Below are positions 52,680 to 55,127 of a DNA stretch of 64,000 nucleotides, piece by piece. The notes beneath the pieces were generated by a model. The model was not told where the DNA came from. It did no database searches and worked only from the letters and a program-made list of their open reading frames with translations. Position numbers and translations under genes: made by a program. Source of the DNA: Microbacterium lacus (GTDB lineage Bacteria > Actinomycetota > Actinomycetes > Actinomycetales > Microbacteriaceae). Position 1 is the first letter of the stretch; every line of letters begins with the position of its first letter. The stretch spans positions 2,976,001 through 3,040,000 of the forward strand of contig NZ_BAAAPK010000001.1 of the NCBI RefSeq assembly GCF_039531105.1. Reading direction: 5' to 3'.

Positions 52680-53660
52680 ATGAGTGCATCGGGTGGCGGC
52701 AAGGCGATCATCGCCGCGTTCTTGGCGAACATGGGCATCGCCCTGGCGAAGTTCATCGCGTGGTTTTTCTCGGGCTCAGCCTCGATGCTCGCCGAGGGCA
52801 TCCACTCGGTCGCCGACTCCGGCAACCAGCTGCTGCTCCTGCTGGGCGGCCGCAAGGCCAAGAAGCGCGCCGACAGCGAGCACCCGTTCGGATACGGCCG
52901 CGAGCGCTACGTGTACGCGTTCGTCGTCTCGATCATCCTGTTCTCCGTCGGTGGTCTGTTCTCGATCTACGAGGGCGTCGACAAGCTCACGCACCCGCAC
53001 GAGCTCGAGAACGTGTGGGTTCCGCTCACGGTGCTGCTGATCGCGATCGGACTGGAATCGTTCTCGCTGCGCACCGCGATCCGTGAGAGCAACCTCGTCC
53101 GCAAGAAGGGCGAGTCGTGGGTCGGCTTCATCCGGCACGCGAAGGCACCCGAGCTGCCCGTCGTGCTCCTCGAGGACGTGGCGGCCCTCATCGGACTCGT
53201 CTTCGCCCTCCTCGGCGTCGGGCTCACCACGATCACCGGCAACTCGGTGTTCGACGCGATCGGCACGCTCATGATCGGCACGCTCCTGATCGTGGTCGCG
53301 ATCACGCTCGGCATCGAGACGAAGAGCCTGCTCGTGGGCGAGGGGGCGACGGATGCCGATCACCGCAAGATCGTGAAGGCGATCACCTCCGGCCCCGAGG
53401 TGGAGCACCTGATCCACGTGAAGACCCTCTACCTGGGCCCCGACGAGCTCCTCGTGGCGGCGAAGCTGGGGTTCGCGGCGGACAAGCTGTTCGCCGACGT
53501 CGCGGCCGAGATCGACATCGTCGAGGCGCGCGTGCGCGCGGCGGTGCCGATCGCGCGGGCGATCTACTTCGAGCCCGACGTGTACGCCGGCCCCGACGAC
53601 TCGGGTTCGCTCGCCGCGCAGCCGGCCACCGAGCAGATCGTCATCCGTTCCGCCGACTGA
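52680..53660 (+). CDS. cation diffusion facilitator family transporter
   Basis: A 326-residue CDF exporter. Helix 2 has SMLAEGIHSVADSGNQLLLLLG near residue 33, with the metal-site His and Asp of HSVAD. HPFGYGRERYVYAFVVSI near residue 67 is the family signature. Helix 5 has PVVLLEDVAALIGLVFALLG near residue 160, with the ED pair in place of the usual HxxxD. The cytosolic domain follows from about residue 215. The metal (Zn, Fe or Mn) cannot be told from the sequence. It is followed by the repeat array. Confidence 0.9.
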   Translation: MSASGGGKAIIAAFLANMGIALAKFIAWFFSGSASMLAEGIHSVADSGNQLLLLLGGRKAKKRADSEHPFGYGRERYVYAFVVSIILFSVGGLFSIYEGVDKLTHPHELENVWVPLTVLLIAIGLESFSLRTAIRESNLVRKKGESWVGFIRHAKAPELPVVLLEDVAALIGLVFALLGVGLTTITGNSVFDAIGTLMIGTLLIVVAITLGIETKSLLVGEGATDADHRKIVKAITSGPEVEHLIHVKTLYLGPDELLVAAKLGFAADKLFADVAAEIDIVEARVRAAVPIARAIYFEPDVYAGPDDSGSLAAQPATEQIVIRSAD

Positions 53661-53977
53661 CGCGCGGCATCCACTCTCCGTCGCGCTCTCCCGCCGAGAT
53701 GGTGGGTTTCTGACCGAGGTGGTGGGTTTCCCGCCGAAATGGTGGGTTCTCCCCCGAGATGGTGGTTCCTCCCCCGAGCTGGTGGGTTCTCCGCCGAGAT
53801 GGTGGGTTCTCCCCCGACATGGTGGGTTCTCCCCCGAGGCGGTGGACACCATCTCGACGGGGAAGGGACCATCTCGAAAGGAAAGGGACCATCTCGACGC
53901 GAGAGGGACCATCTCGGGGGGAGAGGGACCACCTCGGCGGCAGAGGGATCGGCGCGCGGGGCGAAGGGGGCGAGGGG
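53661..53977. other. intergenic region between convergent genes, filled by a repeat array
   Basis: The 317-bp gap between the CDF and tadA stops contains the 20-bp repeat array at 53694-53953. Open frames across it exist only because the repeats lack stop codons in most frames; the 20-bp period shifts frame at each unit, so it does not encode a repeated peptide. Confidence 0.8.
53694..53953. repeat. convergent array of 20-bp repeats with core CGAGATGGT
   Basis: Seven direct units start at 53694, 53714, 53734, 53754, 53774, 53794 and 53814, typical form CCGAGATGGTGGGTTCTCCC. A hybrid unit at 53834 contains the dyad centre near 53845. Then ACCATCTCG, the complement of the same core, recurs at 53848, 53868, 53888, 53908 and 53928 (the last ACCACCTCG), again every 20 bp. 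The two arms share the 9-bp core but differ beside it: GGGTTCTCCCC on the left, CCCTYTC on the right. Confidence 0.95.
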
Positions 53978-54439
53978 CTAGCGGCGGGCGGTGAAGAACG
54001 TGTGCAGGAGGGATGCCGCCTCCTCGGCGTACACGCCGGCGATCACCTCCGCGCGCTGCGGCAGCCGTCGGTCGCGGACGACGTCGTACACCGATCCCAC
54101 GGCGCCGGCCTTGTCGTCCCACGCGCCGTAGACGAGGCGCGAGACGTGCGCCTGCAGCATCGCTCCGGCGCACATCACGCACGGCTCCAACGTGACCACG
54201 AGCGTGCATCCGTCGAGGTTCCAGCCGCCGCGCGCGACCGCGGCCTGGCGCAGCGCCACGATCTCGGCGTGCGCCGTCGGATCGTGGGTCTCCTCGCGCC
54301 GGTTGCGGCCCTCGCCGATCACCGCGCCCTCGGCATCCGTCACCACCGCACCGACGGGCACGTCGCCGTCCGCGGCGGCCTCCTGGGCGAGCGCCAGGGC
54401 ACGTCGCATCGCCGCGGCGTCGGAGGGGGCGGCGATCAC
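53978..54439 (-). CDS. tadA: tRNA-adenosine deaminase
   Basis: A 153-residue zinc deaminase that converts A34 to inosine in tRNA-Arg. [16 protein letters not shown] near residue 52 gives the HAE motif with the proton-shuttling Glu. [35 protein letters not shown] near residue 85 gives the PCxxC zinc ligands. Residues [11 protein letters not shown] are typical of TadA and not of cytosine deaminases. GTG 54439 has TACGCT six bases upstream. It converges on the repeat array. Confidence 0.93.
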
Positions 54440-54445
54440 CCTCAG

Positions 54446-54451
54446 AGCGTA
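54446..54451 (-). promoter_or_regulatory. -10 box of tadA
   Basis: TACGCT six bases before the GTG at 54439. Confidence 0.5.
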
Positions 54452-54482
54452 CGCCCCACCACGCCGGGGAGCCCCGGTGCCA

Positions 54483-54488
54483 TACCCT
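54483..54488 (+). promoter_or_regulatory. -10 box of upp
   Basis: TACCCT six bases before the ATG at 54495. Confidence 0.45.
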
Positions 54489-54494
54489 GAACGT

Positions 54495-55127
54495 ATGCGC
54501 CTGCACGTCGCGGATCACCCGCTCATCACCCACAAGCTCACGGTCCTGCGCGACCAGACCACCCCGTCGCCGGTGTTCCGCCAGCTCACCGAAGAACTGG
54601 TCACCCTCCTCGCCTACGAGGCCACGCGCAACGTCCGCGTGAGCCCGCACGAGATCCAGACTCCGGTCACCACGACGGTGGGTGTGCGCATCAGCGACCC
54701 GCGTCCGCTCGTGGTGCCGATCCTCCGCGCCGGCCTCGGGATGCTGGACGGCATGGTCAAGCTCCTGCCGAGTGCCGAAGTGGGGTTCCTCGGCATGGCG
54801 CGCAACGAAGTGACGCTCGAGCCGACGACGTACGCCGAGCGCCTCCCCGAGGACCTGAGCGACCGGCAGTGCTTCGTGCTCGATCCGATGCTCGCCACGG
54901 GCGGATCGCTCGGCGCCGCGATGGAGTTCCTCTTCGCCCGCGGCGCCCGCGACGTCACGGCGATCTGCCTGCTGGGCGCGCCGGAGGGCGTCGCGGCGAT
55001 CGAGAAGCAGGTCGAGGGCCACGACGTGACACTCGTGCTCGGCGCGCTCGACGAGCGGCTCAACGAGAAGGGCTACATCGTGCCCGGACTCGGTGACGCC
55101 GGCGACCGCCTCTACGGCACGGTCTGA
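54495..55127 (+). CDS. upp: uracil phosphoribosyltransferase
   Basis: A 210-residue enzyme that makes UMP from uracil and [20 protein letters not shown] near residue 73 and [20 protein letters not shown] near residue 127 (PRPP loop DPMLATGGS) are diagnostic. [17 protein letters not shown] at the C-terminus binds uracil. Divergent tadA and upp are frequent neighbours in this family. Confidence 0.97.

Follow-up and report, generated by a model that had tools for sequence, protein, structure and literature searches.

Tandem repeats of the VNTR/MIRU type vary in unit number between strains, as do the arrays described in this work, but the latter also have a core shared throughout the genome, opposed arms and clade-specific dialects. 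Bidirectional intrinsic terminators place a dyad between convergent genes, as does the array of the window (the whole 64,000-nucleotide stretch of Microbacterium lacus DNA that was analysed); however, arrays of this kind have no T-tract and their arms are not kept complementary. The REP, BIME and REPIN elements, with RAYT, resemble the arrays in their many copies, their location in convergent and tandem gaps, their inverted arrangement and the limitation of each family to a species or clade; placement and family limits of REPs are as in these arrays in the accessible part of PMC3733652. The differences lie in the unit, which is here a direct repeat of 20 bp, not palindromic and built on a 9-bp core, and in the fact that sister species differ in the core of nearly all copies at shared sites.

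The DUS dialects of Neisseriaceae also consist of a short clade-specific word found as inverted pairs near gene ends (accessible part of PMC3630211), but in the present case the cores sit in arrays and single copies are not in excess. Direct 20-bp repeats also form parC of plasmid pSK41, where they are bound by ParR (accessible part of PMC9426499); no membership is claimed. The arrays, by contrast with parC, occupy about 40 chromosomal places, mostly with opposed arms. No report of these arrays was found in the open-access literature searched, as judged from titles and abstracts and with subscription journals mostly outside its reach.

Results

The array of the window

The features of the locus are collected in Table 1. 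An earlier note on this DNA had described seven direct units, a hybrid unit and five complementary cores in a 20-bp register, and this was confirmed by the core positions, by TRF, which called both arms at period 20, and by shuffling: the gap contained 10 neighbouring core pairs at exactly 20 bp, whereas none of its 5,000 letter-shuffled versions contained more than 1. The array fills a 317-bp gap (53660/53978) between two convergent genes, also as described. The span proposed for it (53694..53953) runs 17 bp past the last core, which ends at 53936. The flanks of the core were indeed unlike between arms: with each arm read along its own strand, the spacer has GGG (GGT in one case) on the left and CCC on the right. 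By their sequences, the neighbouring genes are presumably not parMR. The plasmid and phage collections gave no match to the window array, and a plasmid or phage origin was rejected on these grounds. The Rfam search gave two matches, both far under the families' own cut-offs.

Table 1. Features of the array and its neighbouring genes (positions in the window)
Feature	Position	Strand	Description
Left convergent gene	52680..53660	+	326 aa; by its sequence, presumably a cation-efflux-type transporter; 34 bp from stop to first core
Left arm	53695..53834	+	Seven 20-bp units; core CGAGATGGT with 0-1 mismatch (core starts 53695 to 53815, n=7, at most one mismatch); spacer GGGTTYYCC-like
Dyad centre	53835..53856	.	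Core, 4 nt and reverse-complement core: hybrid + core CGAGGCGGT (53835-53843, 2 mismatches), GGAC, perfect - core (53848-53856)
Right arm	53848..53936	-	Five - cores CGAGATGGT (core starts from 53848, n=5), outermost CGAGGTGGT, in 20-bp steps; spacer CCCTYYC-like (own direction)
Right convergent gene	53978..54439	-	153 aa; by its sequence, taken to be a TadA-type deaminase; array at its 3' side also in four CGAGTGAGT-clade species

The array family in the genome

A search of the whole genome, proposed in the earlier note, revealed that arrays recur. The genome of the window (G000; 3.54 Mb, 8 contigs, completeness 99.99%) carried arrays at about 40 places (at least 40 among the matches listed), that of the window being one of them; the list of 40 was compiled by hand from the pattern matches listed, and some places may be missing from it. 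Arms ran in both directions at 38 of the 40, with a regular centre in 34 and a shifted or weaker centre in 4; the two single-armed places were C1:96.2 kb and C2:141.7 kb. Core pairs with an 11-nt spacer (at most one mismatch) numbered 82 + 94, against 0 + 0 for a reversed pattern used as control, and the dyad centre (core, 4 nt, reverse core) was found at 42 places with up to three mismatches and at 30 with up to two (control, 1). The loop was of 4 nt at 33 of 39 centres, and the 34 regular elements contained 261 non-central units. Neighbouring cores kept the 20-bp step in 247 of 258 pairs, and in 345 of 359 pairs from loci of other species; the loci had been picked by a 20-bp pattern, which favours the step for at least one pair per locus. 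Because the arrays recur, mostly with two arms, and their placement is non-random (see below), a real feature is favoured over the slippage noise to which the earlier note would have ascribed a strain-specific or randomly placed array.

A DNA-uptake type of signal with dialects, as in Neisseriaceae, would agree with dialects that follow the phylogeny and with inverted pairs at gene ends, which resemble DUS as described in the accessible part of PMC3630211. However, single cores were not enriched (12 in 343 kb of G000 sequence, 13 in 243 kb of gene-selected genus loci), and this makes such a signal hardly credible; membership in DUS was rejected for lack of a single-copy excess in the 343 kb.

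The main rival to the explanation favoured below is a disseminating repeat of the REP/BIME kind: an enzyme recognising the core would copy the element to gene ends, the host would tolerate it where no promoter is hurt, and the conservation of the core would reflect the copying enzyme. Such dispersal is conceivable, though on the unlikely side. Similar unit subfamilies turned up at many G000 loci, as copying would produce. On the other hand, the consensus unit CGAGATGGTGGGTTTTCCGC is not a palindrome of 20-40 nt like the REP unit, the dyad centre alone being palindromic, and the GTAG or CGTC tag of REPs is absent from it (CGTC is present at the junction of some variant units, where CCGT is followed by CGAG). 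The Y1 tyrosine transposase (PF01797) gave no match in G000 and matches in 5 of 14 control genomes, and membership in the REP/RAYT system was rejected on this result.

Position relative to genes

According to a purpose-written codon-score gene caller (checked by eye on the window), the 40 arrays were divided among convergent (17), tandem (21) and divergent (2) gaps, and a tie to convergent genes only, which the window had suggested, was not supported. The other neighbouring gene pairs in the same DNA were 30 convergent, 186 tandem and 46 divergent, corresponding to an excess of convergent arrays (p = 8e-6) and a deficit of divergent ones (p = 0.06). Compared with the other gaps of at least 100 bp (5 convergent, 37 tandem, 34 divergent), the divergent deficit reached p = 5e-6, array gaps being long because of the array itself. 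The upstream stop was nearer than the downstream start for 17 of the 21 arrays in tandem gaps (p = 0.007). The arrays therefore lie mainly downstream of genes, as REPs do, and their convergent and tandem placement is that given for REPs in the accessible part of PMC3733652, a point in favour of the REP/BIME-like alternative.

The origin-proximal half of contig C1 (46% of the contig; dnaA at C1:345.6 kb) held 26 of 35 arrays (p = 0.001, on the assumption that the circle is closed by the small contigs).

Conservation and variation between strains

Core positions 1 and 8 were identical in 260 of the 261 G000 units (counted when the core had up to three mismatches). The spacer was looser than the core, yet partly conserved: T/C-rich and ending in CCGC. 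Across nine species, identity between loci was 0.92-1.0 for cores, a value high by construction since arms were chosen by their core at up to one mismatch, versus 0.52-0.80 for spacers. In six of the nine species, spacers of the same arm resembled each other more closely than did spacers of different loci; the two comparisons came out about equal in G220, and G171 and G031 showed the reverse. In G003 and G013 the spacers were largely locus-specific, which argues against REP-like copying. A less biased check made use of 59 loci fetched by their genes: TRF detected 20 repeats of at least 2.8 copies, nine of them with period 20, and each of the nine bore the core that other loci of its genome carry, or in G025 a single-base variant of it.

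Two strains of one species were compared, G000 and G172 (the latter represented by L172 and by the loci of MAG BWSM_6 within L069-L101, taken as G172). The unit number differed at 21 of 23 comparable arrays, which settles in the affirmative whether copy number varies. Divergence of the aligned units was 3.4% for the core, 8.8% for the spacer and 1.5% for the flank (p = 9e-10), the core value being biased low because units are recognised through the core. Twenty-four of the 34 G000 elements had both flanks in G172 loci, and the array was present at 24 of 24 (the unit finder failed at one), array loss being invisible in this comparison because all loci but L172 were fetched for containing arrays. 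The window locus was outside these 24, its right-hand gene not having been found in G172.

The unit number thus varies in 20-bp steps, as the slippage amplification suggested in the earlier note would give. Neutral slippage acting on chance seeds, with neither function nor dispersal, agrees with this hypervariability but is largely contradicted by the remaining evidence, as it explains the unit number and not the rest: the same core recurs at about 40 loci, it diverges less than the spacer, the sites are non-random, and the 20-bp step is kept in different dialects. This alternative is very improbable. Spacing suited to a cooperatively bound protein had also been proposed; from the sequences, the conserved core, the looser spacer and the 20-bp step would suit such a candidate.

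Arms and RNA folding

Two unit types amplified separately had been suspected from the window, and the genome-wide comparison agreed: of 34 elements, 28 combined a GG/GT arm with an arm of another type, 5 had two GG/GT arms and 1 had none (permutation p = 0.00015). At spacer positions 10-12, mismatches were more frequent between opposite arms of one element (0.61/0.86/0.84) than between arms of different elements (0.43/0.52/0.65); at the remaining spacer positions, opposite-arm and cross-element differences were about equal. Because opposite arms differ in the spacer, most hairpins would be interrupted every 20 bp; compensating changes that keep the arms paired were not seen at positions 10-12, where arms differ more within elements. 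Moreover, TTTT occurred within 25 nt of none of the 68 ends of the 34 G000 elements, and no terminator-like site was found in 53000-55000. The giant hairpin that the transcribed window arms would form does not, on these data, look like a selected feature, and selection on a hairpin RNA as the main constraint was rejected by the comparison of arms at spacer positions 10-12.

An RNA element, whose arms would fold once transcribed and serve the mRNA as a terminator or 3' stabiliser, is for these reasons unlikely, despite several features in its favour. The 317-nt gap as RNA had a folding energy of -173.5 kcal/mol (z -3.0; of 100 dinucleotide shuffles, 1 equalled or bettered it), and at one site (L052) a plain hairpin replaced the array, by eye, in several array-free relatives. 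Among 26 CGAGTGAGT-clade arms for which the finder (minimum 3 units) saw no partner, 22 were sense with the upstream gene, and 19 of these 22 were within 25 bp of its stop or overlapped it; in several loci of this clade the arm was seen in the sequence to begin at -6, so that the upstream gene ends on the TGA of its first core. Since many arrays of the CGAGTGAGT clade show a single arm, the dyad is not general and models requiring it are limited.

This use of a core TGA as a stop codon was noted at six CGAGTGAGT-clade loci (L126, L134, L136, L137, L138 and L157).

Core dialects in related species

In a first sample of 119 genomes of the genus, G000 included, the G000 core was matched in 3. Looser patterns matched 12 of 366 genus genomes, and CGANNNNGT three times at 20-bp steps matched 32 of 366, some of them by chance or at a single locus. 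Defining carriers by at least seven matches of the CGANNNNGT-step pattern, or by the looser patterns in the case of G013, arrays were genome-wide in 12 of the 366: with core CGAGATGGT in G000, G172 and G220; CGAGAAGGT in G003; CGAGATGGC/CGAGGTGGC in G013; CGAGGTCGT in G094; CGAGRTTGT in G091; CGAGCATGT/CGACCATGT in G284; and CGAGTGAGT in G171, G067, G031 and G025. The core word varied among carrier species and the 20-bp step was constant; the search pattern fixed CGA and GT, so that other dialects would escape it.

A tree of 31 genomes built from two proteins united the CGAGTGAGT species in one clade (support 0.998), made G094 and G091 sisters (0.999) and placed G003 as sister to G000/G172 (0.988). 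Dialects therefore largely follow clades, and one family per clade is also what the REP/BIME-like alternative leads one to expect. The exceptions were G000 and G220, which share a core without being sisters, and likewise G284 and the single G242 locus. Array counts in draft genomes are too low, because arrays of the G003 draft reach contig ends or contain runs of N (L152, L154, L155, L243, L244).

A variable-gap scan of the genus was discarded for lack of selectivity: it hit 343 of 366 genomes, and the matches listed included much noise of a coding-like kind. Other steps added few matches in some carriers (G171: 72/76 fixed, 76/76 variable; G094: 44/41 and 46/45), a rough comparison since the patterns differ in one core position. 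In the family-wide search, 69 of 398 genomes matched, many of the matches listed looking coding or due to chance, and the reversed control also matched in several family genomes (e.g. 9/10 in G717, which matched solely this control).

Other genera of the family contain 20-bp arrays with other words, e.g. around GGCGCCACTCGATCGCG in G537, and also in G585; the 20-bp step may extend beyond arrays of the CGA..GT shape. CGARRTGGT-like 20-bp units were seen in Cognatishimia, Streptomyces, an Actinomycetes MAG, Paenibacillus and an archaeal MAG (L077, L079, L082, L088, L096, L099); these single-strand matches outside the genus may be coincidence, given the whole range of 20-bp tandem repeats. Scanned with a pattern, viral contigs yielded 12 stretches, whose units were other words or single tandem repeats.

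Sites shared between species

Eleven of 65 repeat-selected loci from other species shared a gap with a G000 array (at least one flanking gene, on the same side), against a chance expectation of about 1 if there is about one gene per kb: 5 of 9 in G003, 2 of 4 in G013, 2 of 7 in G031, 1 of 4 in G091, 1 of 6 in G220 and 0 of 35 in the rest. That species with different cores share sites counts against REP-like dispersal. At the five sites shared with G003, CGAGAAGGT made up 27 of 31 full cores, A was at position 6 in 30 of 31, one central core was CGAGATGGT, and the spacers were unrelated between the two species. As CGAGAAGGT is already a minor form in G000 (L042, L052, L064), the core change between G000 and G003 may be a shift in frequency.

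The shared gap L052 contained arrays in 3 of 30 genomes searched (G172, G003, G013) and elsewhere hairpins or other sequence, one locus ending too early to tell. At the window site, arrays were present in 4 of 29 genomes (G067, G171, G031, G025), all of the CGAGTGAGT clade, and the other 25 had no array of this kind. The sister species G003 is empty at this site, with 15 bp between the two stops. The simplest account of the window array is therefore that the G000 lineage gained it, at a site that arrays occupy in other species too, and REP-like copying explains this gain better than does an array of binding sites.

Tandem repeats of 106 bp (L178, G028) and 112 bp (L192, G242) were observed behind a gene that has 20-bp arrays in G000, G003 and G013.

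An AbiEi-like gene between arrays

Two arrays flank a 323-aa gene of G000 (C1:805504-806475; L044:4160-5131), which is followed by a cluster that we take to be the S10 operon. Its relatives lie beside or between arrays in G013 (L164, the second flanking array read by eye), G025 (L157), G162 (L162) and, broken, G091 (L121). AbiEi models match the N-terminal half of the protein, and the C-terminal half has an E...D...EFDGxxK pattern that we read as a PD-(D/E)XK nuclease; the protein had no Pfam or NCBIfam match. Its predicted fold (mean pLDDT 62) matched nothing in the PDB at E 0.001 (best E 0.38), and a profile search of PDB sequences was likewise negative (best E 0.53). Relatives were absent from the 59 gene-selected loci (243 kb) and from the window, a difference from the repeat-selected 613 kb that is not significant alone. 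Independent cases are few because three of the species share one site, and the link to the arrays is a lead only. A nuclease-looking gene between arrays in G000, G025, G013 and, broken, G091 would also agree with the REP/BIME-like alternative.

Discussion

The explanation that we favour, tentatively and from sequence comparisons, is that the arrays may be arrays of sites for a sequence-specific factor, with slippage changing the unit number. A DNA-binding protein fits because the 20-bp step is kept across dialects, the core diverges less than the spacer, the core is shared over the genome, and sites at gene ends are shared between species. The 20-bp step would also suit a DNA-binding assembly, since ParR of pSK41 binds 20-bp repeats (accessible part of PMC9426499). 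No protein binding the arrays was found in this work. Further points against the explanation are the partly conserved spacer, the behaviour of spacers in G171 and G031, the core common to the non-sister species G000 and G220, the minor presence in G000 of the G003 core base, the 25 of 29 relatives with no such array at the window site, and the one-armed arrays of the CGAGTGAGT clade.

The 9-bp core is the probable recognition site of the candidate protein, and the step of two DNA turns would place many copies side by side on one face of the DNA, in a filament that could extend from the dyad to either side. Located at a gene end, the filament might act as a two-way barrier: a transcription roadblock or insulator, possibly a nucleoid anchor. 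The arms would grow and shrink, probably by slippage or unequal exchange, and the spacers of opposite arms perhaps differ because a perfect 200-bp palindrome would be unstable. The sequences themselves show the dispersal, the register, the stronger conservation of the core, the placement, the dialects that largely follow clades, the sites common to several species and the change of unit number in 20-bp steps; from these we infer protein binding, its co-evolution with the core, and an effect on transcription or folding.

A more specific version, which we regard as rather doubtful, is that a lineage-specific DNA-reading factor and its approximately 40 arrays co-evolve, the arrays serving as gene-end barriers or anchors with dialects and the AbiEi-like protein being a possible link. 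A change in the specificity of the factor would then be followed by a change in nearly every core, with many of the places kept.

That sister species differ almost throughout in one base of a 9-bp word, at several shared and dispersed loci, would hardly be expected unless a reader or writer acts in trans. If a reader exists, the arrays would be a natural dialect series for the study of DNA-binding specificity and its co-evolution with sites, and would test whether actinobacterial gene ends are guarded by protein arrays or by RNA hairpins. If there is no reader, they would represent a REP-like repeat without a known transposase. In either case, the arrays are ready typing markers, given the proportion that differs between the two strains.
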